Source: Cymodocea nodosa (lineage: Eukaryota; Streptophyta; Magnoliopsida; Alismatales; Cymodoceaceae). Taken from it: DNA of 64,000 bases. A program made the translations under genes and the position numbers. The stretch lies in assembly GCA_036874045.1 (NCBI GenBank), contig CM072335.1:7150001-7214000 (forward strand). Reading direction: 5' to 3'. The first letter of the stretch is position 1. Every line of letters starts with the position of its first letter. This document shows, piece by piece, positions 23,676 through 46,616 of this stretch. Below the pieces are notes generated by a model. That model searched no databases. It had not been told where the DNA came from and saw only the letters and a list, made by a program, of their open reading frames with translations.

Positions 23676-23760
23676 TGACCTAACTCCATAGGGTAAGTAA
23701 GTAGCTATGTTAATTTTATCTCTATTAAATGTTTGTTTATGTTATATAGAATCACAATAG

Positions 23761-24900
23761 ATGGAATTGATGAAATTACCACTAGATGTACTGAGGGAAG
23801 TATTGAGTAACCTATTAGCTAAATATCTGTGTAGATTGTGTTGTATATCAAAGGAAATCAAAGACTATGTCAGAGAAAAATATTTTCATGGACTACAAGC
23901 TGCAAAAATGACTAAGATTAGAGATAGATTTTTATGGAAGTCATTTAATCGTAGTTCAATCAGCTATGAATATCTGAATATGGAAGAAACTGTTGGAATT
24001 CCACCCAATACATTAGAAGGAATAGATCATATTATGGGAATGGATGAAGGATTAATTATTTATAGAACCAAACCAAGGTATGCAATTCTGTTACCCGACA
24101 TTTTGATTAGAAATACTATCACAAGAGAAGAATGGAATATAGGAAGGCCTAATAGATTTGAAGTACCAACTGAAAATTGTGGGTCAGCATTAATCTTTTC
24201 TGATAAAAATTCGGCCATTCCTAAAAAATTGTATTACTAGAGACCAATTGGAAATTGGGATGAAGATTTATGCTTAAGTGTGTATGATTTTCTAAATAGA
24301 TATTGGACTAAAAATACTATGATATATCTAGGATAGAAAGCATTAATTAACAACATACATGTTATACTTGATGGATATATATATCTAGTCACAGATATAT
24401 CAGTTGCATTTAGATCTGATTTATACATAGTAAACATAGACAATTATGATGATGACTTTATAGAAATATTACCTATACCAAGTGATATAGCTAAACCACC
24501 ATCTGTAGAATATGATAAAATTCAATTAGGAATGTGGTATAATGAATATGATGATCCTACTTTATGTCTGATAAGATGGTGGGATAAAGTGATGAAATTT
24601 CAAATATAGATTATGATATACCTAAATGAATGGAAGTGAGAAGAGGAATATGTTGAAATAGATGTAGAAATAGAAATAGCTATATTATCTTGGAACAGAA
24701 GAGGATCTCTTTCTACATTTCATTTCATTAATAGAAATACACTTATATTTAGTATTGATAACATACTACAAGTTTACAAGTTAAAAAAGAAAATGGACTG
24801 CATTAAAAGAGAATTAATAGCAAGTAGAATTATGCCTAAAAAGATTGCTTGGACTGACATGTTTATTCCATTTGTTACTACTTTTCAATCATGTTCTTAA
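23761..24900 (+). pseudogene. F-box gene carried by C1, broken copy
   Basis: F-box proteins are substrate receptors of SCF ubiquitin ligases; the F-box binds SKP1 and the C-terminal domain binds the target. The start is MELMKLPLDVLREVLSNLLA followed by KYLCRLCCISKEIKDYV, a good F-box of about 40 residues. Downstream are ILLPDILIRNTITREEW, like the 'NPxTxE' element of F-box-associated domains, and later Trp/Asp-rich strands. The span is 1,140 bases (380 codons with stop), the same as C2. The spacer before it shows no intron-like interruption. It is probably a host gene captured by the element. It is broken, with more breaks than C2. Confidence 0.8.
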
Positions 24901-27900
24901 ATTATGATTTTGTGCTTTTAATGTTGTGTGTATTTTGCATTTATTTTTAGAAAAAAGAAAAGAAAAGAAAATTTTTAGTTTTAGTTTTATTTTATAAGAA
25001 AGAAAAACAAAATATCAATCTAATTTGTTGGTATCTATTATGGGAAACCAATTGGCTTGCTTGTGAGCCACCAAAGGAATAGGAGCCTGGGTTCCACACA
25101 AGACACTGATTTAACAATTTATGTTTTGTTGTAAGTGTTATTTTGTTATATATTCTACTTTTATTTGTGAATGAAAAGTTTTTCAAAATAAAAAATCAAA
25201 AGATATTGAAGGATATACAAAAGAACAAGGTATGTAATTGATTACTTATCTTGAATTTAGATTTAAACTCAGTTAGTGGAGTTATTCATTAACTCAACAA
25301 ATTAAGTTCGTTGAGTTAGGTGCGAAGTCAACGAAACAATATTCCTGCTTGCTAACATTTATTGAATTTACTATAAAATCTTTTACATTGAGGACAATGC
25401 AAAATGTAAGTATGGGGGGAGGTAATTAAAGTAAAAGCCAAGTAATTTTGTTAATTAGAGGAATTAGAATGGTATTGCAAAAGTTTTGTGGAAATTGAAA
25501 ATTATTTATGAATTTACTGTAACTATCCGATAATTGAGACTGTAAAATTTTTAAGCACTGTAACTGCTTGAATGTTATATTTAGAATCTTATATAAGATG
25601 CTACAAAATTTTACTATTCATATAAATCTAGATATAGTATCTTATGTTTTTACTGAATTTTATGAGTTTAATAGTTTCACGATTTTAAAAAGAAATCAGA
25701 ATGCTTAATTGACACTTAGTAAATTATCTGAAATCCTGAAAGAGCTGAAATGTTGATTTTTGGATTAAATGAAATACATATGATCAAGGATACATTTAAT
25801 TTGATTGATTAAACTTATAGAAAGATTTATGTGTAGATCTTATTAAACTATAGAAAAAGTATGAGCTTAGTGATATGGATTCATATTTTCAGTAAATAAT
25901 AGAAGCAAAACTATACGAGATTTGTGTTTTATTGCATCTGTATTAATGAAATACGTGTATATACCGTGATGAAGGAAAAAAAAAAAAGAGGAAAAAGAAG
26001 AAAATCTTTGAGAGTTTATTTACTTGTTTGATCACGAGCCTTTTGTATTAGAGCAGATAGGTATGTAAGGATTGTTGACCTGAAAAATGACTCTTTAAAT
26101 CTGGCAACCTAAGATGCTGATCAAATCTGGGATTGTTGATTGAAAGCTCGATACATGGGTACACTAGAAAGCTCTTGTATGATTCAAGCTTTTCAAATTA
26201 ACTTTTAAAGTATAAATATGAATATACTGTCCTAAAAAGATAAAAGTGTTTTGTGAAATACAGATATCTTTTGCATCGAGTATATTTTCTGTTATCTAAG
26301 ATTACTGAAGTATGAATCTAGATTAGACTTTTGAAGTTGTTTATTTGAGATACAATTTGTTATTCTACTTGTTTTAATCATATTTGTAGGATCGTATGGC
26401 TACATAAGATGGGGGTGAATTGTGTATCTTTAATATTTTTTGAAATATAATTGAAACTTTAAATCTCAAAAACAAGTTGAGACATTGTTTTCATAAAATC
26501 ATTTTTATTTAAGGTTTCAATTACAATATACAATTCAATTCTCCTCAGAAATTGTAGATGCAATTATATTTCGATACCATGCATCATCTAAACAATTTCA
26601 TAACTACAAACAGAGAAAACTAATTTGCGGAATTTAAAACTTTTCTCCCTGTTTGAGATCTTTCTTCTTCTTCTTTTTCTTCTTTAGCAATTCTTTAGTG
26701 ACGAATATCTTGTCTTTTCATGCTTCACCGAATTTGCTTTCTTCTGATACTTCAAATCTTCAGTGACGAAAATCTTACCTTTTTATGCTTCACTGAACTT
26801 TCTTCCACTTGAGAAATTTTCCCCGAGAAGGTGTTTCTGATCCCTGAAAATGATTTTTCTTTTGGTGTGCAGGGATGGTTTGATCCTTGAAAAGATTTTT
26901 CGTTTTGTGTGCAAGGATAAATTGATCAACGAGAATTCTATGCCTTTTATACTGTATCTTCATTTCATGCATATCCTTCACGTTTAACCACTACCAGTTT
27001 TCCACTTCTCCACGTCTTTTCTTTTTCCTTCATCGAAACACACACGTTCCAACCCACGTTTATATTTTGAATTTTCTTTAGTCATCAGTCTTGGATCTCT
27101 GAAAAATTTCCTACAAAATAAACTTTCTCGTCCAAAAGTTTTTCATTAGTGTAATAAGAAGTCGTTACTTTAATGTTAACTAAATGAGTAACACAAGTAC
27201 ATATATAACTTAACGTTTCTAACTTAACGAGTTCCTCATGTGCCATTTCACGTGACAAGTACTGTAGCTAACTCAACGAACTAAGTCTGTGGTGTTATGA
27301 AATCTCAATGAACCATCTCCGTTGTGTTATGATAACTCAACGAACCATCTCCGTTGTGTTATGATAACTCAACGAACCATTTCCGTTGTGTTATGATAAC
27401 TCAACAAACTAGTAATAAACAAATGTTTTTATAATAAGAATTTTACCACGTGCAAAAAATAACAACTTAAGTTTATAATGCTAACCTAACACGTTGCCTT
27501 AGTGTTCAATATAGCAACTCAACGCGTTTAGTTATGTTAACTTAACGAGTTAAACATGTGCACCTCACGTGATACAATACAACATTCGTAACTTATAATT
27601 TCACCACGTGTATAACACTAACTTAATGAGTTCGTCTCTTCTTTTACTCACTAACTTAACGAGTTATCACGTGACCTATTTTAACCTTTAAGCCTCTAAC
27701 TTAACGAGTTCTCACGTGACCTCTATACAAACAAAACTCGAACTTAACGAGTTGTCTAAATGTGCACTGTTCATGATACAAAAGATATAACATTAAAGCA
27801 TATCATGCTTTTCAATAAAAACACACGTTAACTTAATGTTTAGCTAAATGAGAAATTAATGCAACGAAACGACTAGATATTAACTTCAGATCTAATACAG

Positions 27901-28388
27901 ACAAGTATTTATATCAGTAAGCTTTTTCTGTATTAATTGATGATTTTAATTTCTTTTCACAAGCAATAGTAATTGAGGAAATATGATTATTTTCATTCAA
28001 CACACATCATCAAAACAAAAATACTCAACAATATTGAGTTCGATTGTGTTTTGATTCGTATGTAGTTGAAATTTATTCTGGAAATCATATTGGAAAATTC
28101 AAGATAACAGATGTTTGAAAAGAAGGAAAATTGATAATATAATTAACACCTATATGATGCTAATATATTTTGTATGTAATTTACATATGTTTTAAATATA
28201 TTTGCAGGTTGAAGAGGAGAAAACAATGTTAAAACAGATTATTGAAAAATATAGAATATCTATATGGTAATCTAATTTATGTATTCTGAAGAAGAACAAA
28301 ATGAAGAATTAATTCTAGAACTTTAGAAAGACCAACTAGTTAGATCTTAGTTTGCTAAGGGACTAGCAAAATTTAAGTATGGGGTAAG
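24901..28388 (+). other. 3' noncoding block of C1, interrupted by a solo LTR
   Basis: Four parts are visible. First, about 24901-25380 is AT-rich sequence with dyads near 25265-25335. Second, ACATTGAGGACAATGC (25385-25400) and TAAGTATGGGGGGAGG (25407-25422) form the hallmark that follows pol in Athila/Tat Gypsy elements. Third, about 25500-26384 and 28031-28290 are homologous to the post-pol block of Copia A1 and end near an acceptor-like ATATTTGCAG at 28198-28207. Fourth, GGGACTAGCAAAATTTAAGT (28359-28378) and ATGGGG form the polypurine-like end before the E-type LTR. No coding sequence is seen. Confidence 0.65.
26385..28030 (-). repeat. Solo A-type LTR with target duplication ATATT
   Basis: This is a complete A-type LTR (1,646 bases) on the minus strand, from TGTTGAGTATTTTTG at 28030 to CCTACA at 26385. 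ATATT lies immediately on both sides (26380-26384 and 28031-28035). No internal sequence is attached. It is the product expected when two LTRs of one insertion recombine. It splits the block shared with Copia A post-pol sequence. Confidence 0.95.
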
Positions 28389-29700
28389 TGTTTAGAATGA
28401 AAAAGTGTATAATATTAAGGGTTAAATGATGGTTAATTGCATAATATTTAGCTTATCATATGAGAATTAAGCCATTATGTTATAATTGCACTCTTATATG
28501 CTTTAATGAAGTAATCTGCATAATTTCTGGGAATTAATGTTAATTAAGTACATTTCTGAACTATCGGTGAATTGTAGGCTGTGAAATTCTTAAGTATTCG
28601 AATTTTCTGTTATTTCAGAGAGTTATATTGCATGTACCGGACAATATGTTTTAAATGAATATTTTATTATTTCTTGGAATACATGTGTTGAAACCTTAAT
28701 GCATGATTTAAGTGAATGTTTAGTAAGTTATCTGCTAACTATCTGAAATGCATCTAGGCATTAGATAGTTAGACTCGTAAGTATCTGAAATATCTGAACT
28801 CATTAAGTTAGAATTATGCACGTGTTGAATTTAAATGCTTTGTTATGTCACATGAGCTGCACATGTATAACTTGTTAAGTTAGCATAACTGCACGCGTTG
28901 AGTTATATAAATACACACTAAGGTAATGCGTTATGTTAGCAGCTTATTTCTTTATTGCACGTGTTCTATAGTTAAATCAACGAAGTAAGTCCATTGAGTT
29001 ATCTGTAACTCTACGAACCATATATTTTCTAATATGCCACTATAGTAGTTGCAGAAACAGGACATTCAAAGGAAAACCACGATTGTGCGTATCACGTAGG
29101 AATTCACTCATGGAAGGAAGAAGAAATCACTATCGTTGATATGAATGAAGGAAATCCAACTGATCATCTAAGCAGAAGCAGTTACTATAGAAAGAAATAT
29201 AAAAGAAGAGGAGAAAGATGAAGAAAGTGTGTGTCCAGAGGTGGAGGACTATGCTAACTGTAGGCAGCGTCTGAAGTTCCCTGAAGCTCCACACCACCAC
29301 CAAAATCAGCAACCATCAGAGGTCTATGAGGATACTTTCCTGATGTCAAGTCGATTTCGAGCCAAACACGGTGCCTAACAACCACTGTGAGGAGTGATCG
29401 CTTCGCAGGAAGGGAAGACATTTTCACCAAGCACCGACTCATATCTCAGGAGATCGTAAAGCTTCTAGCCTTGTTTTCGGGTTGATGCGAGTATGCTGAA
29501 GAGGAGATCATCTTACAATTTTGGACTCGCGATTTTATAGGGAGAGGAGGCAAGATTGTAAGTGATTAAGTTTTCAGTGGTGTAATCACGTTGCATGTAG
29601 TGATAGAAGTTTTTATTGTCGATAGAGATTTTTGCATTTCACCTTTCATTCATCTTTAGGAACATATCAAAACAAAAATACCAAAAACAACAAATTATCT
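28389..29700 (+). repeat. E-type (Gypsy) LTR, left part
   Basis: It starts TGTTTAGAATGAAAAAG after a polypurine-like tract and matches the complete E LTR at 52019 onward, up to about 53602. The matching right part of an E LTR appears at 43974-44600. It is shorter than the equivalent part of E2 by about 270 bases, in U3. Confidence 0.85.
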
Positions 29701-29701
29701 G

Positions 29702-30155
29702 AAAGGATCGAATGACACACTAGAAGGGGGGTGAATAGTGTCCTAATCAAGTTTATTTTGCTTTTAAAAATTTCGGAAGCTATTGACACTAATGAACCCT
29801 GATTAATTGATTTTAGAATTAAAAACTAGCAGAGCAGAAATTAAAGAACACAAAAAGATTTATAGTGGTTCCCCAAACTGGGTAGTCTACTCCTCAAGGC
29901 CACAACCTTGAGAATTCCACTAAGTGCTTTTAAGGCTAAGCACAAACCTTAATCAAGTTGTTTTTGTAGGCTAAGCAACAACCATACACAAATTGCTTTT
30001 GCAGGCTAAGCAACAACCTTACAGATGTTTTTAAAGGCTAAACAAAAACCTCACACAAAGCACCAACTTTGTGTACTCAAGACCCTAATCTTGAGTAAGT
30101 GAAGTATCACACTTCACTCTCTTCATCAAGGCCCCGACCTTGTGAAGGTATACTC
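29702..30155 (-). repeat. Fragment of another Copia LTR
   Basis: AGGATCGAATGACACACTAG followed by a G-run and TGAATAGTG is the minus-strand end typical of plant Copia LTRs. TTTATAGTGGTTCC, also typical, is near 29850. Four degenerate copies of a 30- to 38-base unit with the core AGGCTAAGCAACAACC lie at about 29931-30055. No TSD or internal part is attached. Confidence 0.6.
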
Positions 30156-30960
30156 TCAAAAGCTAATGACAACAAAGTGGTAACACAGTTTATAAGAACT
30201 AATATAATTGCTAGATTTGGAATACCTAAAGTTATTATCAGTGATAGAGAAACTCATTTCTATAATAGAAGTTTTGAATCCTTAATGAAGAAATATTGAG
30301 TAAATCACAAAATTGCAACATCATATCATCCGCAAATAAGTGGAGTAGAAAGTGCAAACAAACAAATTAAGTTAATCTTAGAAAAAGTAGTAAATCCTAC
30401 TAGAACAGATTGGGCTAATAGATTAATAGATGCACTTTAGGCTTATAGAACTGCTTATAGGAAAAGCTTAGGTATGTCACCTTTTAGGCTAGTATATGGA
30501 AAAAGTTGTCATTTACCAGCTAAAATTGAACATAAAGCTTATTGGGCATTAAAAACTCTGAACACTAATTTAAATCAAGTTGCTAAAAATAGGAAAATGC
30601 AATTGATTGAGTTAGAAGAATTTAGGAATGAAGCTTATTCAAAAACTGTAAGAGAAAAAGAGAAAATGAAGTTCTGGCATGACAAGAAAATTATTTCAAA
30701 AACTTTTGAAATAGGACAAGAAGTATATCTGTACATGACTATAGACTTCATAACCATCCAAGAAAATTAAGATGTAGATGGGCAAGACCTTACATAATTT
30801 GAAATATTTATTCCTATGGAGCTATTGAAATTGAAAATCCTAAAAATCAAAATATATTTAAAGTAAATGAACAAAGACTTAGATCTATTTTGAAGATTCC
30901 AAAAAGTTCCTTTGGAATTATAGAAGAAGTAAGAGTAGAGGACTACTCGAGCTTTACTTA
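30156..30960 (+). pseudogene. Gypsy integrase C-terminal part (D), broken
   Basis: It contains ARFGIPKVIISDRETHFYNR, ATSYHPQISG (the 'TAYHPQTxGQ' block), GMSPFRLVYGKSCHLPAKIE and KAYWALKTLN, all diagnostic of Athila/Tat integrases. KFWHDKKI and a GQEVYL block (the 'GDxVLL' region) follow. Integrase joins the element cDNA to the genome. It is broken, with a few breaks. Confidence 0.88.
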
Positions 30961-30989: not shown

Positions 30990-31525
30990 ACCCTTATTTA
31001 AAAATAGTCATGGTTCAACCGAAAGAAATTATCGATTTTACTGAAACATGTATTAAAAGAAAAAATTATTGCGGTTCAACCGACAAGATCCATCGGTCTG
31101 ATTGAAACATTAAAAAAAAAAATTCTATATATTATATTATGTAAAATGTCGGTTTTATCGAAGCTTAGTATCGGTTCAAACAGTATAGAAAAAAAAGAGA
31201 GAGTATTTAATTTCGGTTCGACCAAGGAATATAACAGTTTGATCGAAATTCTAAAATGTTGAAAAATTGAGAGTCGGTCGGATCAAAAATTCTTCAGTCA
31301 TGATCGAAGTACGAATTATTATTATAAGTATTTTTATTAGTTATAACTTGACAGGAAGTCCATTGAGTTATGCTTAACTCAACGAACTTACCACAAAGTA
31401 CTATAACTTAACGAACAGAGTTTAGGATAAGTTAACGAACTTACCCTGTTGAGTTAACTATAACTTAACAGAGTACTGTAGTTAAGTCCATGGACTTAGT
31501 CCATGGAGTTATGATTAACTCCACA
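30990..31525 (+). repeat. Degenerate CGGTTCGACCGAA words and CGTTGAGTTA dyads (D)
   Basis: From 31010 to 31320 there are about eight degenerate copies of CGGTTCGACCGAA (for example CGGTTCAACCGA, CGGTTTTATCGAAG, CGGTTCGACCAAGG). From 31340 to 31525 there are several AACTCAACGAA / CCATGGAGTTA dyads. The first word recurs in the hAT-associated repeat at 46670-47590. Confidence 0.6.
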
Positions 31526-31561
31526 GAGAAGTGATGAGAGAGTGAGAGTTTGCGCAGGAAA

Positions 31562-33864
31562 ATGACTCGATTACCCACCAAAAACTTGGGGTTTATTTAT
31601 ACTAAAACATAGGATTTGGGGGCATTATCCGTAGAATCATTTAGAACTTAGAATAGTAGAGATCAGAGTGATTCTGTTCCATTCTGTCACACCACGAAGA
31701 CAAGATGACGCTTGAGTTCTGGGAGGAAGTTGACACCACGAGATTTCTTAGAGAATCAAAAGAATGGCATACGAGACGAAAGATCAGGAACACAACACGA
31801 GAAAAAGAACTGGAAAAGGTAGAATCTAACATCTTCTATTGGAGGAAAGTTTTAGTAGATCTAGATATTACCATACCTTAGATTGTGGATATAAGGATTA
31901 AAGTAGCAACAAAAGTTGTTGTGAATCGAGAAAGGAAAATAAGACCAAACAACGAGGTTGCCCTAGAGTTAATTCGATCCAAGTCCAGATTATGGTTCTT
32001 ATGAGTAATTGCTGGTAGTGCAAGAGGTGAAATTAGGTGGCAACAACAATAGAGGAAAGTAGCTAAAGAACTAGTAGCAGAAATGCCAGCTATGGCTGTA
32101 GAACAGTAGGACCTTTAGTTCCACCACCTAAACCACTAGAAAGGGTGGTAGTTATGGGGCCTTCTACTGAAGAAGAGTTAAAAGAATTTGAAGAACTAGA
32201 TCGAGTTGGGAAAAAATAAGGAGAACCAAAAGATTTGGTAGTAGCTAAAGCACATCTAGTGTTTGATGCACTTCACAAAAGGAGGGTTGCAGAAAGTTGA
32301 AGGCTCAATACAAAGTTAAAGTTGAATAGCATCAAGAAGCCACTACCATACCTACTACAAGAGAAACTAAAGTTGGTTCTTCAAGACTAGTAATTATAGA
32401 AAAAGTAAAATAGGAAGAGCCAGTACTTGTGGTTCGAGGGCCTATAGAACCTATTTTTGTAGATTTAATCTTAGAAGAGGAAGATTAGGCATAGCTATTT
32501 AGACGAAGGAAAGGAAAAAATATAGTGTCTGAAGCTCCTATAGAGATTAAACCTGAGCTTAAAATATCAAAAGGGCCTAAAGAGCCCATTTTTGTAGACC
32601 TTCTATCTGAATCTAAGGAGGAGCAGAAGCAAGAGCAAAGAGAAGAAGAAAAATAAGTTGAAATTAATCTACAACCTATACAAATAGAAGAAACTGAAAT
32701 TAGGGCAGAAGCTGATTTGCCTGTGACTCCATCCCAATTTGCCACAAAATCAGAAAGAATAGTGACAATGCAGATTGGTAGTCAAGAGGAAGAAGAAAGA
32801 GAAGAAACTGAATAAGAAGCTGAACAAAAGCACCAAGAACAAGAAGGAAATATCTCGATAGATTCCACTCTAGAGGGAGAGACTCTTAAGCAAATTTTTG
32901 AGAGGATTCAAGAAAGAAGAGTGGAGAGTTCTGCCAGCTCTCCACCATAGATAGAAACCGAAGCTGAAATGCAGGAATCTCTGGATCATTTCCAACAAAT
33001 TCAAGTTCAACACATTGAAGAAGAAATTCAAGAACAAACCCTTCTAGAGCAACAAATTCAAATTCCTAACCCGACTGAAGTAACAATTCTAAATGAAGTA
33101 TACTTTTGGAGTTAGGAAGCATATAATAAATATCAAGAGATTAAGGGTTATGATATTATATATAGTAGACTAGTAAACTAGGATGGTATGAATGACATTA
33201 AAGAATTATTTGAGTTCCAAGGTCTATTACAATTTATTTCTCAATAGAGAGGGTATGCTGTATATGAAAATTTAGTGCCCTGTTTTTATGCATACTTGAG
33301 AGAGGAAGAAGGAAATTTAATTTCCAATGTGGAAGAAGTTAATGTATAGATAACACTAGAGCTTCTCCATAATATTTTTGAAGTGAAAAATGAAGGGATA
33401 GAAATTCTGGAGAACACAATTGCAGTCGAGTGGATAGAACAAGAAATGAAAGACAATTTAACTATCAATCCTGGTGTGCCATTATTAAACAGATTGAAGC
33501 ACTTAAATGGTAAAGCACACATGGTAGCTAACATTTTGATTAAAAATGTCTACCAATGACAAGGCCATGATATTGAACTAAGTTAGTTTGTTAAACAGGC
33601 CACATATGTAGTTGTGAACAGAATTCAAATTAATTGGTACAAAGTTTTTATCTCCAAGTTGAGAGCAGCAAAGAAGAAATTATTTTATGGAGATCTAATT
33701 CCACTACTAATGGTGGACAGTATTGACTTCACGCAATGGACATCCAAAAGGATAAGATCTGGACCTTCTGGAGACATTATAGGAGCTATTGAACGGATAA
33801 ATCTGTTAGAACAATAACTAAAAAAGCTCTAGAAGGAAGTAAATGAACTTAGGAAAAAGGACTA
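31562..33864 (+). pseudogene. Env-position ORF of D, homologous to that of Copia A, broken
   Basis: A Lys/Glu-rich N-terminal helical part (about 31700-31900) is followed by a long acidic, Gln/Glu-rich middle (about 32150-33110). The C-terminal domain (about 33130-33830) contains ELFEFQGLLQFI, FEVKNEGIEI, MVANILIKN, NRIQINWYKVFISKLR and KKLFYGDLIPLL. These match the A1 ORF in order (DLFEFQGLIKFL, EVLGLKNEGV, FIANILHAN, NRIQINWFDVF, KLFYGD). I see no membrane anchor. Function is unknown. It is broken, with many breaks. Confidence 0.75.
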
Positions 33865-35011
33865 AATGTATTGTTCATCTACTTATATTTGTATTGAAAA
33901 ATATTTGACTGTATGTAAATGTAAACTATTCATATAAATGAATGATTGTATTTTAGATGTTTTTGAAGTCATGTTTGAGAAGGAATGATATAATTGAGAA
34001 TTGTATTGAATATTATATAACTGTTTAAAAGATGTGCAAGACTGTTTAAAAGTTTTACAAATTTTATGAATGACATGGTTAAATGCATGATAATTGGTTA
34101 ATGCTTGAATATATCTGTATGCTAAAAAGTAAAATGTAAATTCTATATAACAAGAAGTGAACTGTAAGTTAAATATGCATATAATGTTCAGATTTAAATG
34201 AGTTAAATTAGAACACTGCATTAATGACATGACTTTAACTTTAATTAAGTTGACAAAATGTAGAAAAAGAAAAAATATATAAAAGTTAATACGAGGAGTA
34301 AGTTTTAGAAAAATTTGCTAAGTATTAACTCAATGAAGTAAGTCCATTGAGTTAACATTAACTCCACAAGGTCAATAAGAAAATATAAGGTCACTCCGTT
34401 GAGTTATCTGTAACTCAACGAAGTTAGTCTATGGAGTTAGCAAATAGGCAATGAAGCTAGTCTGTTGAGTTAGTTGTAACTCAATGCAGTTAGTTCATTG
34501 AGTTAGAAACATAACCGAAGCTAGTCCGTTGAGTTAACTGTAACTCAATGAGGTTAGTTCATAGATTAAGCTGAACGGTTATTCTTTTAGCCACAAAAGA
34601 AACTTCATGGGTTTAGTAGTTACTGAAATTTGAAATTAGAAGTGGAACATGTATCCATAAAAATAGGAACTATATTGCACGTTACAAGACATGTTCTTGC
34701 AACAAGATTCATTTGCCTTATAGACGTGCATTATAAATATAGAACAAAATGTTATTTACGAGCTACCAGCACTTGAGGAAGGAAAGAAAATTTGTTGGGG
34801 AATTGGAAGGAGAAGCAATTGATTCAACTTCATCCATCAACAACTATTTACTGAAAACAAGCATCAAACTAGTATGTAATTAATCTTCTACTATTTTACT
34901 TTATGTTAAGAGTTTATGAGCACATGAATTCGTTCTCCTTGCACTAAACGATTATTAAGAACACTTACATAGGATTATTCAACATAGAGGCGTACTGAAA
35001 TATTTTCTGAA
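33865..35011 (+). other. LTR-like or leader sequence between D and C2
   Basis: It starts after a purine-rich run (AGGAAAAAGGAC) and is collinear with the C1 leader from about 34208 on. It has dyads from 34320 to 34570 (CTCCGTTGAGTTA, AACTCAACGAAG) and a TATA-like CATTATAAATATAG near 34729. The arrangement suggests D's 3' LTR doubling as C2's 5' LTR. I could not define both ends, so this stays open. Confidence 0.45.
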
Positions 35012-36265
35012 TTGGACTTTAACGAAATCCTTAAGGGTGTAGCTAACCTTTCTTTAAAAGAGAACGAAGATATGACTGCTCTAGTAGAAAAACCATTAGG
35101 AGAAATTCTGTATCCAGAATTAGTTGATGAACCTTCATGTATTCGATTACCCAACTTTGAGGGAGATAGGTTTGAACTGAAATCTAATTATATTAGTCAA
35201 TTGCCACACTTTCATGGATTAGAAAGAGAAGATGCCTATTATTTCCTTAGAGAATTTAATGAAGTTTGTCAAACGATGAAAATGCCGAACATGAGTATTG
35301 ATGCTATTAAACTTAGATATATCCCTTTTGCTTTAAAAGACATAGCTAAAAGATGGTTATATACTCTATCGCTTGATTCAATTTCTACATGGACTGAATT
35401 TTGCTCTATTTTTCTGGAAAAATATTATCCAACACATCAAATGATTAAAAAGAAAAAGGAAATACTAATGTGTAGCCAAAAACAAGGAGAATCATTTTGG
35501 AAATATTTTGAAAGATTTAAAGATTTACTAACTCAATGTCTACATCATGCAATGAGTAAAGCACAATTAATAAGTATAATTTATGAAGGCATAGATGTTT
35601 CAATGAAATCTTTATTAGAATCTACTTGTCAGAGTGGATTTTTAAAACTGTGTAGTGAGGAAGCATGGGCATATTTAGAAAACTTTGCAAAAAGAACTAC
35701 ACAGTGGGAAAACTCGGTTAAAGCTATTATAGATAAAAGAATATTGCCAAGGAGAATGCAGGAAATAGATTCAAGCACTATGCTTGAAGTTAAATTAACT
35801 GAATTAACAAAGAAAATAGAAGAGTTATCATTAAATCAAAAGCTAGCAGAAAAGAATGCAAACATTAATGATTTAGATATTATTTATGCTAGAAACTAGA
35901 AGAATAACTTTGGAAATTCTTACAATACTAATTGGAGAAATCATCCAAACCTATCTTGGAGAAATAACAATTTCTAGGGAGGAGAAAATATAAATGATAA
36001 AAATATAAGTTATGAAGCATTAATTGAACAAGGATCTAGAATAGAGAAGTTAGAAAAGATAATTCAACAATTAAACAATCGTCTAGATCATGTATTTGGA
36101 AATGCTGCCATTCAAAATCAAAATATGAATAGAAATATACCCCCTAGACAAAAGGAATCAATAGAAGTTAGATCTACTAGAGGATTGCCAATGCAAGTAG
36201 TACCTAACATTGTCAACAAAACTATTAATGAAATTGATACCTCCTATGGGAGAGAAGCTGAATGA
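35012..36265 (+). pseudogene. gag of C2 (Gypsy, Athila/Tat-like), broken
   Basis: This is the better preserved copy of the C-type gag. It starts DFNEILKGVANLSLKENED near a TTG, then DEPSCIRLPNF, ISQLPHFHGLEREDAYYFLR, KLRYIPFALKDIAKRWLYTL, SWTEFCSIF-like helices, QGESFWKYFERFKDLLTQCL and TTQWEN. The length is 1,254 bases, equal to C1. The Asn-rich C-terminus ends in EIDTSYGREAE. It is broken, with a few breaks. Confidence 0.88.
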
Positions 36266-36486
36266 AACAATATAACTAAAGTAACTATGTATAATATAGT
36301 AAGTAGAAAAATATGAAAAGGAAAAAAAATGTATGTTTAATTATAGCTAGTAGTATCGTATAGTTATTACTTAACTCAACGAACTTAGTCTGTTGAGTTA
36401 TGACCTAACTCCATGAGGGTAAGTAAGTAGCTATGTTAATTTTATCTCTGTTAAATCTTTATTTATGTTATACAGAATCACAATAG

Positions 36487-37626
36487 ATGGAATTGATGAA
36501 ATTACCACTAGATGCACTAAGGGAAGTACTGAGTAATTTATTAGCTAAAGATCTGTGTAGATTGTGTTGTGCGTCAAAAGAAATTAAAGACTGTGTTAGA
36601 GAAAAATATTTTCATGGACTACAATCTGCAAAAATGACTAAGATTAGAGATGAATTTTTATGGAAGTCATTTAATCATAGTTCAACTAGCTATGAATATT
36701 TAAATATGGAAGAAACTACTGGAATTCCACCCAATACATTAAAAGGAATAAATCATATTATGGGGATAGATGAAGGATTAATTATTTACAGAATCAAACC
36801 AAAGTATGCAATTCTGTTACCCGATATTTTCATTAGAAATCCTATCACTAGAGAAGAATGGAATATAGGAAGGCTTAATAAATTTGAAGTACCAACTGAA
36901 AATTGTGGGTCGGTATTAACATTTTTTGATAAAAATTCGACAATTCCTAAAAAATTGTATTGTTGGAGACCAACTGGAAATTGGGATGAAGATCTATGCT
37001 TAAGTGTGTATAATTTTCTAAATAGAACTTGGACTGAAAATAGTATAATATATTTAGGACAGAAAATATTAATTAACAATATAAATGTCATACTTGATGG
37101 ATATATATATTTAGTGTCAGATATATCAGTTGCATTTAGATCTTATTTATATATAGTAAGCATAGATAGTTATGATGATGACTTTATAGAAATATTGCCT
37201 ATACCGAGCGATATAGCTAAACCATTGTCTGTAGAATATGATAAAATTTAATTAGGAATGTGGTATAATGAATATGATGATCTTACTTTATGTTTGATAA
37301 GATGGTGTGATGAATTGATGAAATTTCAAATATGGATTATGAAAGACCTAAATGAATGGAAGTGGGAAGAGGAATATATTGAAATTGATGTAGAAATAGA
37401 AACAGCTACATTATCTTGGAACAGAAAAGGATTCCTTTTTGCATTTCATTTCATTAATGGAAATACACTTATATTTAGTATTGATAACATACTACAAGTT
37501 TACAAGTTAAAAAGAAAAATAGACTACATTAAAACAGAATTAATAGCAAGAAGAATTATGCTTAAAAAGTTTGCTTAGATTGACACATTTATTCCATTTG
37601 TTACTACTTTTCAATCATGTTCTTAA
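36487..37626 (+). pseudogene. F-box gene carried by C2, nearly whole
   Basis: Residues 1-45, starting MELMKLPLDALREVLSNLLA, then KDLCRLCCASKEIKDCV, fit the F-box consensus (LP, L, EVLS, L, AKDL, R, SKE) that binds SKP1. After a helical linker (KMTKIRDEFLWKSF) come segments like an F-box-associated domain: AILLPDIFIRNPITREEW, LCLSVYNFLNRTWTE, INVILDGYIYLV, ELMKFQIWIMKDLNEW and ATLSWNRKGFLFAF. The protein would be 379 residues, usual for plant F-box proteins. It lies 221 bases after gag, as in C1. It is broken, with about two breaks. It is probably a captured host gene. Confidence 0.85.
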
Positions 37627-37692
37627 ATTGTGATTGTGTACTTTTAATGTTGTGTGTAATCTGCATTTATTTTTAGAAAAGGAAGAAAAACT

Positions 37693-37968
37693 TTAGAAGA
37701 TTTTGGATTATCTTATGATACAACTGAGATTTATTGTGACAGTAGTTATGCAATAAATCTTTCTAAAAATCCTATATTACATTCAAGAGCAAAGCATATA
37801 GAGGTTAGACATCATTTTCTAAGAGATAACGTAATTAAAGGAAAAATTAAATTAGAATTTGTGTCTAGTAAAAATCAATTAGCTGATATATTTACAAAAC
37901 CTCTAGACGAAAATACATTCTGCAACATTAGATTAAATTTAGGTATTTGTAGGTTATGTGATGTGTAA
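37693..37968 (+). pseudogene. RNase H C-terminal end (A2)
   Basis: It contains NLSKNPILHSRAKHIEVRHH, LEFVSSKNQLADIFTKPLDE and the closing LGICRLCDV, matching A1 up to 6295. Only the end of pol is present. Confidence 0.9.
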
Positions 37969-39557
37969 AATGCTTAAACTCCACATAAAAAGATAAATAT
38001 TATTGATGATGTTGTTCACCTCATAGATATTATATACTTATTATAAATATCTAAAGTAATATCTAAACTGCTCCTTAAGATACTATGTATTTATTGTAAA
38101 ATCATAGTAGTGTCTTATTGATTTTAAGTAGTTTATCAATTTTAATAGTTTTTACAATTTTAAGTGGAAGTGTAAATGAAAAACATTAAATACTTCTGAC
38201 ATTCTGAAATTTTGATTAAATGTTTTCTTTGAATCAAGGAAAATGCATATGATCATGCATAAATTTAACTTAATTGATTAAACTTGTAGAATAAGTTATA
38301 TGTAACTCATCTTAAACTGTTAATCAAAAGTATAAGCTTATTGAAACTGATTCATATTCTCAGTATAATCATAGAAGTAAAAATTGTATGAGATTTGTGT
38401 TTTATTGCATCTGTATTAATGGAATACATATATACTGTGCTTAAAATGAAAAGTGCTTACAAAGTGAAAATCTTTGAGAGTTTATTGATCAGTTTGATCA
38501 CGAGCCTTTTGTACTTGAGCAGATTGGTATGTAAGGATTGTTGTCCTGAAAAAGGATTCTTTAAATCTGGCAACCTAAGGTCCTGATCAGATTTGGGATT
38601 ATTGATTGAAAGCTCATTACACGGGTACATTAGAAAGCTCTTGTATGATTCAAGCTTTTCAAACTAACTTTTAAAGAAAATTATCAATATTTACTGTTTT
38701 GAAAAGAAAAAGTTGTTTCATTAAGTACAGATATCTTTGAATCGCATATAGTTTATACCAATATGACTACTGATTTATTGAATCAACATTAGTACTTTTG
38801 AAAACATTTATTTGAGATACATTCTTTTATTCTCCTTGAATTAATCGAATTGAGTTTAAAGTTGTGTTTTGATTCATATACAGTAGGAATTGATTCTGGA
38901 AATCATTTTTGATGATGTCAGGATAACGGAAGTCTCTGAAAAGAAAATGTAAAAGTATAGTTATACTTAACATCTATTGTCACTACAAGTATATTTTGTA
39001 TTTTGATTGACTATATTTGAAGTATATTTGTAGGGGGAGGATTAACAATGTCGAAAACAGATTAATATAACTGAGAATACAAATCTTAGTTAATTTGAAT
39101 TAATGTCCTCTTAAAATCTTGATGAAATAATTTAAAAAGACAAATAAACTATTTTAGATTCAAAGGACAAAATGTTCAAATAGTTTACTATGTTCTCAAG
39201 ATAATGTTAAGTTTTAGCATGTGTGTTGTTTTCGGAACGTTTCAGTTGGAAGCATCTGAAAATTGTTTTAAGTGTACTAACTAGACGTTATGTTAGACAA
39301 GGTAACGTGTAAAACTGCCTCTAGACAGCGTTTTACTCGTTAGGTTAGTTAACTCAACAAGTTATACTTGAATATTTTGGGTACCTTGATTGAATAAACT
39401 TTATTCAATATTTATTTAATTTCTAAACCCGACTTCTCTTCACGTTGAGTTATACGCCTAAAAACCCTATTTAAACACTTATAACATGGGGACTTAGGTT
39501 ATTTGTAAACTTTGTCAAGAAAATCTTTCCCGCTTGTTGCTGTTACAGCCTGTGACG
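37969..39557 (+). other. Post-pol noncoding block of A2
   Basis: It is nearly identical to A1 6296-7883, including TATATTTGTAG|GGGGAGG with the AG at 39032-39033, and the CGTTAGGTTAG / AACTCAACAAGTTA words near 39340. Confidence 0.75.
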
Positions 39558-41825
39558 ATAGTCTCCAAGTTCTACAAAGGTTGTGGCAGAGGAAAAGGCA
39601 AAAGCAGAAGAGATGCAAAAGGAAAAGAAATAAAGAATGATGAAGTTCCACGTACTTGGTTCAAGAAAATATTTCGAGTGGACAAAAGGTTAGAAGAACT
39701 TTATAGAGAATACTTCTTTTCTTAGGATATATTAGTTGAACTTAGACAAGAACTTCAACATACTGATGCAAGTATTACATACATGGGTATTCGAAGTAAA
39801 TATGATAGAGAATACAGAATGAAATGCGTTGAGATTGCATTTTTGGAACAGTATGCAAAATATTTGGAAAAATGTGTAGGTTCATCAAATAGAACTCCTC
39901 AAACTCCTATAAACGGTACAAGACTACATGCATTTGAGGAAGAGCATGAATCAGCTATCCCTACTCCTTTATATTCAAAACAAGTAGAATCAGATATTGC
40001 TATAGACAAAACAAAAGTTGACAGTCTTCGAAAAGCCGTTGCAATAGAGAGTGCCTTAGAAGAATTAAAGCAGAAAACTTTTATGGAGCAATTTGAAAAG
40101 AAAACAGCAATACTTGAAAAGTAGAAACAAAAATGTTATAGAAGAAGGAAAGTCAGAAAAATTATGTCTAAGGAAACAAAGTCTATTGAAAAAGGAAAAT
40201 CAGATGAAAATTTATTTCCAAAGGACAATGTATGTTTAGACATTGTACCTTATTGTGCATCAGATAAACTCATCAGTTCCGAACACACTGAAACTGATGA
40301 AGATAATGAGACTTTATTTTCCCTTGCTAGAAAACTTGAGAAGAAATCCAAGTCAAATATGAGCTCAAGTTTTTCTATTAGTACAAGTCCTGATGATGTA
40401 GAAATTGACAAATCAGAGCATCAGGCACTTGACATTGAATAAGTTATTGCAGATATAATTGACAATGTTGAGGCAGTAACTAGTTCAAAGGCTGAATTGT
40501 CTAGAGTAGCAGATATTGAAAATGTTAAGACTCTAGAAAAGCTAAAAGTTAACCAGCCTTCTACAAAATCTATAGAAGTAGATTTTGAGAATTCACAGCA
40601 TGAATCAATGGAAATATCTGTTGAACAAAATGAAAAATTACAGACGGATACACCAACTGTAGAATTTGTGGAAAAATTGAAATCTAAACATTCTATAGAG
40701 ACTGAACAGATGAATGTTGAGTATATTGATAATGTTCCTAACATTGTTGAAGCTGAAGAATCATGCTTACCTGAGCAGCTTCAAGATAATATTTTGGAAG
40801 AGGAACAACATGACATTCATTTTGCAGAAGAGGTTCCTGAAGATGAATTAAACTCTGAATCACGGCTTCAGGTATCACCTTCTTTGTGTACAATATTAAA
40901 AATTCAAGGTAATGCAATTCATTTTAGATCTGAAGAAGCATTGCAGAAATACAATAATCTGATTACATGTCAAATTCTGCATGCTCGTCCAATAAAATTC
41001 AGAAATTTGATGGAAATAAGAGATCTGTTTGAGTTTCAAGGACTCATTAAATTCTTGCCAGTAGGAACGAAATGGAAGCAATACACAGAGCTTATTGCAG
41101 CTTTTTATAGCAATCTGGTCAAGAATGGAGATTTTCTGAAAACTCAAATAAATGAGCAGGAGTTTATATTGTCTCCTAAGTTAATTTTTGAAGTTTTAGG
41201 ATTAAAGAATGAAGGTGTTGTTGTTACCAACAAATTTGACATAATAAGACAACTGGAATGGAACATTCAATCTTTATCAAAAATTCCAGATGTATATTCT
41301 GAAATGAGATTAATGGAAAATCTGAATGCAGAGGCAAGATTTATTGCAAATATATTGCATGCAAATTTATTTCAAAGAGTTGGACACAATATGGAAGTCA
41401 GCAGAAGTTGTTTATATGCAACTTATAGCTTCCTGAATAGAATTCAAATCAATTGGTTTGATGTTTTCACTTCTCAACTACAGCATATGAGTTCAAAGTT
41501 ATTTTATGGTGATGCTGTATGTAGACTCATTGCAAGCCAATTGAATTTATCTAACTATCCCTCTGAAACTAAAGGCATGAGAGCATTTAGTGTCAAAGAT
41601 TTGCAAAAATTCCAGGCCATGCATATACCTCAATGACAACAACAACAACAACTTGATACAGACCATATACAACAACAACAACAAAGTTATTCAATTCAAG
41701 CAGAATAGCAAACCCAGCTACCTCCTGACTTAGATGTAGTGCTTAACGACATCAGAAATGATATTAGGCATCTAGGAGATAAAATATGTAATGCTATAAG
41801 TGATATACATAGGAGGGGTCGATAA
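39558..41825 (+). pseudogene. Env-position ORF of A2, broken
   Basis: It has the same plan as A1: basic RGKGKSRRD start, LEELYREYFF helix, acidic Ser/Glu middle (40160-40870), and C-terminal domain (about 40890-41600) with DLFEFQGLIKFL, EVLGLKNEG, FIANILHAN and NRIQINWFDVF. The acidic middle and C-terminal domain are better preserved here than in A1, which gives the clearest view of the domain. A Gln-rich tail and GDKICNAISDIHRRGR coil end at 41823-41825. It is broken, with a few breaks. Function is unknown; 'env' is positional. Confidence 0.78.
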
Positions 41826-42321: not shown

Positions 42322-43976
42322 TGTTGAGTATTTTTGTTTTGATGATGTGTGCTGAATGAAAATAATCATATTTTCTCAATTACTATTGCTTGTGAAAAGA
42401 AATTAAAATCATCAATTAATATAGAAAAAGCTTACTGATATAAATACTTGTCTGTATTGGATCTGAAGTTAATAACTAGTCGTTTCGTTGCATTAATTTC
42501 TCATTTAGCTAAACGTTAAGTTAACGTGTGTTTTTATTGAAAAGCATGATATGTTTTAATGTTATATCTTCTGTATCATGAACAGTGCACGTTTAGACAA
42601 CTCGTTAAGTTAGAGTTTTGTTTGTATAGAGGTCACGTGAGAACTCGTTAAGTTAGAGGCTTAAAGGTTAAAATAGGTCACGTGATAACTCGTTAAGTTA
42701 GTGAGTAAAAGAAGAGACGAACTCGTTAAGTTAGTGTTATGCACGTGGTGAAATTATAAGTTACGAATGTTGTATTGTATCACGTAAGGTGCACATGTTT
42801 AACTCGTTAAGTTAACATAACTAAACGCGTTGAGTTGCTATATTGAACACTAAGGCAACGCGTTAGGTTAGCGTTATAAACTTAAGTTGTTATTTTTTGC
42901 ACGTGGTAAAATTCTTGTTATAAAAACATTTGTTTATTACTGGTTCGTTGAGTTATCATAACACAACGGAAATGGTTCATTGAATTATCATAACACAATG
43001 GAGATGGTTCGTTGAGATAGCATAGCACTACGGACTTAGTTCATTGAGTTAGCTATAGTACTTGTCACTTGAAATGGCACATGAGGAACTCGTTAAGTTA
43101 GAAATGTTAAGTTATATATATACTTGTGTTACTCATTTAATTAACATTAAAGTAAAGACTTCTTATTACACTGATGAAAAACTTTTGGACGAGAAAGTTT
43201 ATTTTGCAGGAAATTTTTCAGAGATCCAGGACTGATGATTAAAGAAAATTCGAAATATAAACATGGGTTAGAACGTGTGTGTTTCAATGAAGGAAAAAGG
43301 AAAGACGTGGAGAAGTGGAAAACTGGTAGTGGTTAAATGTGAAGGATATGCATGAAATGAAGATACAGTGTAAAAGGCATAGAATTCTCGTTGATCAATT
43401 CATCCTTGCACACAAAACGAAAATTTTTTTCAAGGATTAAACCATCCTTCACACAAAACGAAAAATCTTTTCAAGGATCAAACCATCCCTGCACACCAAA
43501 AGAAAAATCTTTTTCGGGGATCAAAAACACCTTCTCGGGGAAAATCTCTCAAGTGGAAGAAAGTTCAGTGAAGCATAAAAAGGTAAGATTTTCGTCACTA
43601 AAGATTTGAAGTATTAGAAGAAAGCAAATTCGGTGAAGCATGAAAAGACAAGATATTCGTCATTGAAGAATTGCTGAAGAAGAAAAAGAAGAAGAAGAAA
43701 GATCTCAAACAGGGAGAAAAGTTTTAAATTCCGCAAATTAGTTTTCTCTGTTTGTAGTTATGAAATTGTTTAGATGATACATGGTATCGAAATATAATTG
43801 CATCTACAATTTCTGAGGAGAATTGAATTGTATATTGTAATTGAAACCTTGAATAAAAATGATTTTATGAAAACAATGTCTCGACTTGTTTTTGAGTTTT
43901 AAAGTTTCAATTATATTTCAAAAAATATTAAAAATACACAATTCACCCCCCTCTTGTGTAGCCATACGATCCTATA
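42322..43976 (+). repeat. 3' LTR of A2 (about 1,655 bases)
   Basis: It starts TGTTGAGTATTTTTG after AAAAAGGGGGAGA. The U3 array of CGTTAAGTTA words with CACGTG boxes is at about 42595-43110, and the TATA box TTATATATATAC is near 43111. It carries three copies of the 43-base leader repeat (about 43405-43540), against two in A1. The right end overlaps the E sequence by about three bases, so it is placed at 43974-43976. Confidence 0.92.
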
Positions 43977-44621
43977 GTATTAAAGTGTTGTATTATTTGT
44001 TTTATATCGTGATTAATGTTATCATTGTCCGTATTGTGAATGTTTTATGTTTGTTTGATTCAAAAAATAGAAAATAGTTTTATTGTTTACTGAAATTGAT
44101 TCATTCTAGATACTTAAAGATTTTAATGGTTACTATTTGAAATATCTGAATGTTAGTGTTATTTAATGATAAATCTAATTTTAACTAACATTAAAGAGCT
44201 TAATTAATGTTATGTACATTCTATGGAACTGCCCAATGGTTGGCCGAATTCCTTTGTAAATAGCAGTATTTAACTGGAAAGGTAAGCTCGTGGAGTTAAC
44301 TTAAGTCCACGAGGTTAGTCTGTTGAGTTAATCATAACTCCACGAACTAGGTTTGTTGTGTTAATTGTAACTCAACGGAGTGCTTAACTAAACACATATA
44401 AACTCAAATATAAAAATCAAAACAGTACAAAATTCTTACTCAATCTCTATGGGATCGACCTGTACTTATACACAAATACAATATACACTATGCACTTGTA
44501 GTTAAAAATACAAATTAGATTTAATATCTAATTTGTGTGAAAGGTTGTTTGTTTACTTCTAAAAGTAATTATTTATATAAGCATCAAAACAAATTAAACA
44601 AGTTTTTCTAGCACTATTGTA
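43974..44621 (+). repeat. E-type LTR right part with decayed primer site
   Basis: It matches 53614-54259 of E2. It includes GTCCACGAGG / GTTGAGTTAA dyads (44285-44380) and CAATCTCTATGGGATCGACC, the U5 signature of Athila/Tat-type LTRs (about 44441-44460). The LTR ends near 44600. AGTTTTTC and TAGCACTATTGT follow at 44609-44620. The latter differs from TGGCGCCGTTGC, the classical Athila-type primer site, only by transitions. Confidence 0.75.
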
Positions 44622-46150
44622 TAAACAAGTTTATGATTTAACTTTTCACAACAATACAGTGAACAATGTGTATTTGAAACTATTTTAGACTTGATTAACC
44701 AATTTTAAATAAATAGTTTGCTCAAGTACTAAATAGATAAATAAATATGCATAGCAGAAATAAAAGTAAAAAACACAAGGGAATTTTAGGTGGTTTACTA
44801 ACTAGGCTAGTCCACCCCCAAGGATCACTTGGGCTTCACTAAGTGTTTCAACACTTACAAACACTTGCTTTCAAGTCGAAGCAAGAACCAATCCCTTAAG
44901 TTTTTAGGTCGTAGCTCTAACCAACACTCAGAAGTTTTCAAGTATAAACTTTAGAAAACCAACCTCTTGAGTTTTCAAGTCGAATCTCAAACCAACAACT
45001 TGAACGAAGCTTTAAGGTTGAAGCCACGAACCAAATGATCCATCTTGGATTAGACTTTCAACACTTGGAGAGCTTTAAGAATCTTCTTGAATATCCAGCT
45101 TTCAATCGGTTCTTTGTAGCAATTAATCTAAATTGAGTTTTCTTCTGTAATGGTAGTTGATTTGCAATGTACATTGTATCTCTATATGTGATTGTCTGTG
45201 TAATCTCACTTGTTAGCTCTTTTGAATATTGAATGATCTGTTTGTATTTATGCTTGTAAGTCCAACGATCATATTTTCTCTTCAACGAATTGATTCTATT
45301 GTACTTGCTGAGTTTGCAGGTCTGAATATGGTAAGTTACCATTTCAAAAGGTGTTTCAAGATAACCTTCCGATTTTCTTAGACTTTTGGATAGTTAGCTA
45401 TGTAACTTTTCGAAGGATGTTCATAACTCACCGAAAATCCACTTAAGTCCTTTTGTCACATGGGATTTAAGTCATACACGTGAAGTGTCTTAAGTTCTGA
45501 TGGTTATGGATGCTAACCTACTGAAATCTTCAACTTTCGGATAGTTAGCTACAGTAACCTCCTGATTCTTCTTCTAAGCTTCTGACTGTTTTCTCCTTAT
45601 TTCTGCACGTGCGTAATAAGATGACTTAAGTTTCAAATAGTTAAATTTGTAACCTTCTGAAACTTCTTATTTTTCGGATAGTTAGCTTTCTCACTCTCCA
45701 AAAATCCTTTTTAAGCTTTTGTCTAGATTTCTGCACATGGGTAATTGAATGTCTTAAGTTTCGGATAGTTAGCTTTCCTAACATTCCAATTTCCTTGAAC
45801 TTCCAAATAGTTAGCACCTTAACTCTCTAATCATTCAACCAACTATCTTTCAAACTCTTCGAAAGCCTTGTATTTTCAAATAGTTATTCTTCTAACTATC
45901 TGACGGTGTTTCTACTGTTTTAAACTGACTCTTCAGATACTTAAGCCTATAACTTACCGAAGATTAACTTTCTTTCGGATACTTATGCTTGGTAACTGTC
46001 TGATTTTCCTATAGCTCTATTGCAGCGATTTCTGAACTAGTTGTATTTGTTTATCTGCCTTCTGATTTTTTGTTGAACAGTCTTATCTGTGAAATATAAT
46101 TTGTTTCCTCACATATGTTTTTGCATTATCAAAATACAAGGATCCTAACA
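44618..46150 (-). repeat. F-type Copia LTR (F1)
   Basis: On the minus strand it starts TGTTAGGATCCTTGTATTTT at 46150 (Sirevirus-like TTTTGATAATG follows). It matches F2 from about 45290 onward. Many TTCGGATAGTTAGC / CTAACTCTCCGAAAA words and CACGTG or CACATG boxes lie at 45360-46000. There is no polypurine tract or primer site on either side, so it is a solo or truncated LTR. The left boundary is approximate and no clear target duplication was found. Confidence 0.7.
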
Positions 46151-46616
46151 ATATTTACTTTATGTTCATGAATTCAATTTTGAAAGGGCATTTGACATCA
46201 TTTAGCTTTTATATTTGTTATTTCAAATGCCATAATTTCCTTTTACATATTTGTAATTTCTTATCTAAATGCTTGATCTTTATTCTAAATATCATATTCA
46301 TACTTAGAATATTGTAATTCCATTTCAAATATTTGTGTTTCATATATAGAATATTATAATTTCATTTTTGGCACTCATACTTATGTCTAAAATATTTAGG
46401 TTCATTTTAGATAGATGAGCTTATTTTTAAAACATTTATCTTTCATTTTGGATATTTTATATCGAATATCCAAATATTATTTAGTCTTGACATTAGGTGT
46501 TCTAATTTTATCTTAGGTATTTATATCCTTAATTTTAAACACTTATATTTTAATTCATTTCTCCACTTTTTTCTCTCTTTCTTTTTAATAAAAAAGGGGT
46601 TCAATCTAATTGAACT
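46151..46616. other. AT-rich spacer, no gene seen
   Basis: This is 466 bases of AT-rich sequence with degenerate repeated phrases such as TTTCAAATATTTGT and TAGAATATTATAATT. It could be ancient host intergenic DNA or a worn-out repeat. I see no coding signal. Confidence 0.5.

Follow-up and report, generated by a model that had tools for sequence, protein, structure and literature searches.

Athila4 and Calypso are elements of the Athila lineage, and the Ty3-type LTR retrotransposon family described here, which carries an F-box gene, is one that we take to be Athila-like; its primer site with GCGCCGTTGCCGGGGA is presumably of the Athila/Tat type. As far as the available portions of two studies go (PMC6317226, PMC7264820), the family shares with the Athila lineage a capsid of the PF03732 type, the GCGCCGTTGCCGGGGA primer site and, between pol and the 3' LTR, additional ORFs together with long non-coding stretches. 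An additional RNase H marks Tat according to the available part of PMC6317226; only RT_RNaseH-type matches were obtained in the first 1,211 of the 1,269 residues of the pol frame of our reference element, D, so that the additional RNase H is absent there, as in Athila. As in Athila too, no chromodomain was found in the parts scanned. A profile search of the scanned elements gave no match to the Athila ORF-1 domain PF03078, which the same portion of PMC6317226 records in only 16% of Athila elements. The canonical gene order is GAG-PROT-RT-RH-INT (PMC6317226, PMC7264820, both in their available parts). Unlike in Athila, the capsid of this family follows the integrase and a set of ORFs in the env position and is itself followed by the F-box gene, while a zinc-knuckle ORF without capsid precedes pol.

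The following comparisons with extra genes in other LTR retrotransposons draw on the available portions of the papers cited. A flax Ty1-copia element encodes an F-box protein between its LTRs and keeps its RNase H (PMC5142383). It shares with the present family an F-box gene inside an LTR retrotransposon, but it is one copia element, and the portion available mentions neither family-wide retention, nor a selection test, nor a displaced capsid. Orchid Ty3/Gypsy elements carry an AlkB-type m6A demethylase (PMC9289625), and resemble the present family in that a whole family has fixed a complete additional gene whose domain is host-like; the orchid gene encodes an RNA demethylase, whereas that of the present family encodes a predicted SCF adaptor. 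The same paper, as far as available, describes fixed extra domains in plant LTR retrotransposons as rare and reports a screen of 121 angiosperm genomes reaching 5 kb either side of the RT; the F-box of D begins about 7 kb past the RT. Bs1 of maize and gene-transducing LTR elements likewise contain host-like coding sequence in sense orientation, but those extra ORFs are described from one or few copies (PMC7264820, PMC3726574), whereas most of the copies sampled from the present, large family have the F-box. The opposite direction of transfer, the capture of transposon domains by F-box genes, has also been reported (PMC12062965). The word F-box is absent from the main text, as available, of PMC7264820, PMC9289625, PMC11963269, PMC3726574 and PMC6317226. 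The literature searched (titles and beginnings of abstracts, with subscription papers mostly outside) contained no report of a family-wide F-box in LTR retrotransposons, and no paper in it, again with subscription papers mostly outside, described a gene order with the capsid after the integrase.

The window, that is, the whole stretch of 64,000 nucleotides analysed here, comes from Cymodocea nodosa (GCA_036874045.1, contig CM072335.1, positions 7,150,001 to 7,214,000 of the forward strand). It contains two decayed copies, C1 and C2, of one Ty3-type LTR retrotransposon family, whose parts and neighbours are as follows.

30144 to 30767, forward strand: C2 integrase C-terminal remnant, matching E1 from 8842 onward (ORF 30441-30767)
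31313 to 33814, forward strand: C2 env-position ORF region, decayed, collinear with E1, E14C and D, named by position only
33815 to 35011, forward strand: C2 region preceding the capsid, with matches in E1, E11, E14 and D
35012 to 36265, forward strand: C2 capsid gag frame, first ATG at 35072, two internal stops, PF03732, no CCHC
36266 to 36486, forward strand: C2 spacer, with a splice-acceptor-like T-rich run and an AG at 36474-36475 that is conserved across rows
36487 to 37626, forward strand: C2 F-box gene, two internal stops, PF00646 at 31.3 bits
37684 to 43974, forward strand: 3' portion of a Ty1-copia element, with the end of RNase H, the 3' region and an LTR, fused to C2 and outside the F-box element
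21552 to 22285, forward strand: C1 region preceding the capsid, its left part cut by a copia element in reverse orientation
22286 to 23539, forward strand: C1 capsid gag frame, seven internal stops
23540 to 23760, forward strand: C1 spacer
23761 to 24900, forward strand: C1 F-box gene, four internal stops, PF00646 at 31.7 bits
24901 to 28374, forward strand: C1 3' region, into which a solo copia LTR is inserted
28375 to 28388, forward strand: C1 polypurine tract, directly 5' of the 3' LTR, a junction shared with E1, E11, E13 and E14
28389 to 29701, forward strand: first part of the C1 3' LTR, beginning TGTTTAGAATG and matching D 2111
43975 to 44658, forward strand: second part of the C1 3' LTR, past a 14.3-kb interruption, exact end uncertain
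52019 to 54242, forward strand: further LTR of the F-box Ty3 family

A sequence-only reading of this DNA had described two copies of a unit formed by a gag ORF, a spacer and an F-box ORF. The part lengths it gave (1,254, 221 and 1,140 bases, identical in both copies) were confirmed, as were the 13 differences between C1 and C2 in the first 120 bases of the F-box. The domain assignments stand, since PF00646 is present in both copies and PF03732 in C2, but the frames of both copies carry internal stops. In Pfam profile searches PF00646 scored 31.3 bits on 36487-37251 (C2) and 31.7 bits on 23761-24240 (C1), above the cut-off of 20.5, so that the predicted F-box was borne out, and PF03732 scored 68.5 bits on the C2 gag ORF 35012-35899. 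The integrase frame of E1, the relative that identifies the C2 remnant, matched PF00665 (rve) at 46 bits; in the env-position ORF of the E14 relative PF20167 reached only 16.9 bits against a cut-off of 45. Homology between C1 and C2 runs from 21552/34210 through 24961/37689 at about 85-91%. In an ungapped comparison they diverge by 7.7% in gag and 9.4% in the F-box; the figure of 37.6% for the spacer is inflated because no gaps were allowed. In the C2 pre-capsid region TATAAATA at 34732-34739 is TATA-box-like and, judged by its letters, a possible candidate promoter.

C1 keeps its own polypurine tract and 3' LTR, unlike C2, which is broken off at about 37684 inside the end of a Ty1-copia pol frame. 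The ORF at this fusion (37660-37965) was assigned to copia pol by reading, not by profile, and 37688-43021 matches 6017-11345 of the window at 96%. The solo copia LTR within the C1 3' region lies in reverse orientation at 26385-28030, with ATATT flanking it on both sides.

The anatomy of the family was established from stretches on contigs 1, 11, 13 and 14, compared together. The most informative is element D on contig 13 (C13:10056001-10075200), a 16.5-kb insertion with both ends present and an open F-box frame. Its parts, in the coordinates of D, are as follows.

2111-3907: left LTR, with the primer site directly after it
3948-4523 and 4527-4913: zinc-knuckle ORFs, with a stop between them
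5135-5632: protease
9506-11373: env-position ORFs
12316-13368 and 13426-13761: capsid, in two ORFs
13869-15035: F-box, open frame
16769-18622: right LTR, with the polypurine tract before it

The pol frame of D is open over 1,269 residues, and its first 1,211, which were scanned, contain RVT_1 (444-599), RT_RNaseH (689-790), H2C2 and rve (967-1060), so that RT and RNase H precede the integrase. The zinc-knuckle motif of the 5' ORF was found by pattern, zf-CCHC scoring 17.6 bits, under its cut-off of 27. The target duplication AGAGT lies on both sides of D, within a copia pol gene. Between the two LTRs 69 of the 1,797 aligned positions differ (3.8%), with 57 gap positions set aside; at a rate of 1.3e-8, this would place the insertion of D at an age of the order of 1.5 million years.

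The order of the family thus runs from the 5' LTR and a tRNA-type primer site through the zinc-knuckle ORF, protease-RT-RNase H-integrase and env-position ORFs to capsid, F-box, polypurine tract and 3' LTR. A second element lying between LTRs, on contig 14, has the same order as D; identity between its LTR parts is 93.6% and 82.7%, a repeated stretch lies in its right LTR, its F-box frame is broken, and a shortened copy comes after it in tandem. E1 and E14A are collinear across 10.5 kb at 88%. The LTR starts with TGTTTAGAATG immediately past the polypurine tract, and copies with unrelated left flanks share this starting base. These LTR starts rule out the arrangement in which the pre-capsid region, with its TATA box, would be the LTR, and what follows the polypurine tract a tail. 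On contig 14, after position 47869 of E14 (L051), a right LTR leads into a primer-site stretch and then a shortened internal region, forming a tandem with a shared LTR. Tandem copies are perhaps a partial explanation of the words resembling primer-binding sites found past some 3' LTRs (E1, E11 and the window).

The position of the capsid was followed by tblastn. The D capsid protein has a single match in D, downstream of the integrase, and one match each in E1, E14A, E14C, C1 and C2, plus a short fragment in E14. No second, 5' capsid was found by tblastn in the interval from left LTR to protease in D, E14B or E14C, with either the D capsid or a protein of Tasmannia lanceolata as query, and D thus lacks the capsid gag upstream of the protease that is expected of Ty3 elements. 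The Tasmannia protein (P0003, 540 residues) has capsid at residues 1-250 and then protease at 324-489 in one frame; the counterparts of these parts in D lie at 12538-13275 (capsid) and 5135-5632 (protease), in reversed order. Nine relatives of the capsid were found in the protein database, some from named plants. Among the matches listed, the spacing from integrase to capsid is 4,688-4,825 in all five same-strand pairs within 20 kb.

An order of this kind could arise artefactually from tandem or chimeric copies, in which a normal element lies beside a capsid and F-box element and shares an LTR with it. A tandem with a shared LTR does exist (element C of E14), words resembling a primer site are found past some 3' LTRs, and C2 is itself a fusion with a copia element; D, however, has one LTR pair, with a primer site after the left LTR and a polypurine tract before the right one, and is enclosed in a 5-base target duplication; its capsid match is single with none from the left LTR to the protease, and the spacing is fixed in the five pairs just mentioned. 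We regard the artefact as extremely improbable; element D rules it out unless D is misassembled. The capsid frames of D, A of E14 and C2 contain no CCHC motif, and this motif is present in the 5' ORF of D. Together with the capsid downstream of the integrase, these features make the gag of this family appear, from its sequence, to be split between both ends of the element, through either duplication and loss or translocation. Such a displaced capsid breaks the gag-pol order used to classify Ty3 elements, and raises the question of how the capsid is expressed and packaged with pol.

The genome searched comprises 374.6 Mb in 28 contigs. With the C2 F-box as query, 6,043 first-look candidates were obtained, of which 149 were scored: C2 itself and 148 others (C1 included), on 20 contigs and 80-87% identical. 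The gag query gave 7,013 candidates (133 scored, 89-93% identical, C2 excepted) and the integrase query, taken from E1, 10,040 (150 scored, 89-94% identical, the query excepted). As candidates are not equivalent to copies and only a subset was scored, the claim is limited to thousands of candidates. The earlier count of two copies therefore gives way to a high-copy family with thousands of first-look candidates genome-wide, and further gag and F-box units are dispersed over the genome. This dispersal rules out that C1 and C2 represent one segmental duplication.

At 27 of 30 loci cut around F-box matches (L009 being C2), gag lies directly upstream in the same orientation; 20 of these extend to the gag start and seven are cut short. 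Three of the 30 loci (L027, L028 and L031) are disrupted. Two further samples were selected, one by gag (places 4 to 61 of 133, in steps of three) and one by integrase (places 3 to 41 of 150, in steps of two), both from the upper part of their lists. F-box sequence was found at the expected place in 18 of 20 gag-selected and 15 of 20 integrase-selected stretches. The two gag-selected exceptions have 3' region (L062) or LTR (L065) there. The integrase-selected copies without F-box are L075, L077, L081, L084 and L088. Compared with D, L084 (read further as L095) has lost 2.16 kb by a deletion that begins in mid-capsid and ends shortly beyond the F-box, and the other four have 3'-region sequence at that place. 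Since five of 20 lack the F-box, and one of them by a deletion, some copies have apparently spread without it. The offsets of L077 and L084 are nearly equal, so that a deletion subfamily may be spreading. Among the matches listed, four capsid and F-box pairs lie on the same strand within 20 kb, with spacings of 1,470, 1,475 (C2) and, in two cases, about 11.25 kb, on either side; three same-strand pairs of integrase and F-box have spacings of 6,295, 6,380 (E1, the source of the query) and -19,511. Seven of the eight best PF00646 matches cut out of the genome (L001-L008) are copies of the element, and the remaining one, L005, is a different F-box gene that reads as kelch-like. Copies of the element may inflate the number of F-box genes counted in this genome.

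PF00646 was detected in all five F-box proteins tested (C1, C2, L010, L014 and D), at 31.3-40.4 bits against the cut-off of 20.5, and the protein is probably an SCF adaptor, as its domain content suggests. The F-box-associated domain FBA_1 scored 16.4 bits in the C-terminal half of D, below its cut-off of 21.1, and profile searches of L010 and L014 gave no FBA_1 match. An alignment of nine F-box proteins has 16 invariant columns between L6 and S30; D, which is outside this alignment, departs by reading at four of the 16. The F-box frames are open in separate subfamilies (L014 and D). The AlphaFold model of 254 residues of C2, made without alignment, had a mean pLDDT of 38, too low for use. No relative of the F-box protein was found by sequence among solved structures (PDB), and none in the protein database, where plants are present, perhaps few, so that this absence says little. 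Of 39 rows, 37 are undisrupted, and 35 of these have a T-rich run ending in AG, 9-11 bases 5' of the F-box ATG; this conserved acceptor-like run makes it plausible that the F-box mRNA is spliced.

The gag-spacer-F-box junction is shared and collinear even in subfamilies of about 75% identity (L002 and L008). Distances in gag and in the F-box are correlated, with a Mantel r of 0.96 among 30 copies and 0.42 among the 26 of the main subfamily, values that none of 2,000 permutations reached. Both results support the earlier proposal that the F-box was acquired before the copies separated, and we infer from them a single acquisition before the subfamilies split. Alternatively, selection on the F-box could be that of the host, if separate subfamilies had captured separate members of a host F-box family. 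Searches of the genome for host F-box-associated families found PF07734 (FBA_1) in none of 31 candidates and PF08268 (FBA_3) in none of one, and the controls were likewise without match, so that these searches speak neither for nor against a host source of the gene and leave this alternative some room. Nevertheless, the collinearity of the junction at about 75% identity and the correlation of 0.96 make repeated capture very improbable.

The sequence-only reading had further suggested that the F-box may have served the element, and the dN/dS values obtained agree with it; pairs that share C2 or D are not independent of each other. Between subfamilies the F-box ratio is 0.24-0.42, below the shuffled null. 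Compared with C2 it is 0.295 in L001, 0.236 in L002 and 0.240 in L008, where the shuffled null, which ignores mutation context, has means of 0.74-0.77 and 2.5% points of 0.47-0.54. Six copies of the main subfamily gave 0.28-0.43 against C2, five of them below their 2.5% points; L010, at 0.429, lies above its point of 0.385. For the capsid the ratios against C2 are 0.246 (L002), 0.234 (L008) and 0.28-0.44 (the six main-subfamily copies), with L001 (52 codons), L010 and L015 not below the null. Against D, the F-box gave 0.26-0.47, below the 2.5% point in nine of nine comparisons, although that with E14C (0.465) is barely under its point of 0.479; the capsid gave 0.17-0.36 and pol 0.20-0.31. The zinc-knuckle ORF gave 0.30 and 0.46 against D, and D versus E14B (0.464) is above its null point of 0.363. 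Between C1 and C2 the ratio is 0.415 for the F-box, reached by 2.5% of 1,000 shuffles, and 0.412 for gag, reached by 9.8%. From these values the F-box looks somewhat less constrained than the capsid.

Variants present in a single copy are spread evenly over the three codon positions (110:107:110 in 31 rows), the pattern that decay after insertion should give. Variants shared by at least three copies (70:52:68) or by two (33:27:41) have a weak bias. Taken with the dN/dS ratios, this indicates neutral decay after insertion and constraint along the lineages. The F-box could also be a passenger, acquired by chance and amplified with the element without any function, as the many broken copies, the elements devoid of F-box, the weak codon-position bias of shared variants and the one within-family comparison not below the null would allow. 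Such an explanation is nonetheless improbable, given that the between-subfamily ratios are well below the shuffled null and within the range of the capsid, that frames remain open in separate subfamilies (L014 and D), and that F-box sequence was found at 18 of the 20 capsid-selected places sampled. We therefore favour service to the element over passenger status: probably, this is an Athila-like Ty3 family with a rearranged genome that has retained its acquired F-box gene because the gene serves the element. If true, a family-wide F-box under purifying selection would be a far stronger case for an element-encoded ubiquitin-ligase adaptor than the flax element.

With regard to mechanism, the F-box protein would be made from an RNA that is spliced or has an internal start and, going by its family, would bind plant SKP1. 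The C-terminal half, which has at most a weak F-box-associated match, would recruit a protein to the SCF ubiquitin ligase. Capsid and F-box probably travel as a single 3' module. Polerovirus P0 and nanovirus Clink are viral F-box proteins, and the logic of a parasite F-box steering an SCF ligase may be shared with them. By such analogy the most likely target, which we propose tentatively, would be a host factor restraining the element, such as a silencing protein; if so, the target of the adaptor would point to a host factor that controls elements of this kind. Another possibility is that the F-box acts on the element itself, turning over the capsid or another element protein, or tuning the ratio of capsid to pol, the capsid being encoded by a gene of its own in this family. 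Capsid and F-box are neighbours in the 3' module, are co-inherited and were lost together in L095, which fits such a role, but self-limitation should be harder to select for than the removal of a host block (an argument, not data), and we consider action on the element rather unlikely. It is conceivable, though doubtful as a whole, that gag has been split such that the nucleocapsid zinc knuckle stays with pol, whereas the capsid has moved to the 3' end, where it and the acquired F-box form a separately expressed module, comparable to the accessory-gene end of retroviruses, which would aim SCF at a host restriction factor and would thereby have helped the family to rank among the most abundant elements of its genome.

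Other features of the window concern its Ty1-copia elements and repeats. A direct repeat of 874 bases, 88% identical, is formed by 45280-46152 and 49534-50407. Identity at the DNA level is about 72-81% between the Ty1-copia family found in the window and the 3' region of the F-box Ty3 family, in the stretches 6435-7361 and 7824-9970, and 38170-39064 and 39498-41633. The copia ORF that follows pol and the Ty3 env-position ORF are 34-36% identical, and the likeness between both families is possibly the result of exchange between superfamilies.
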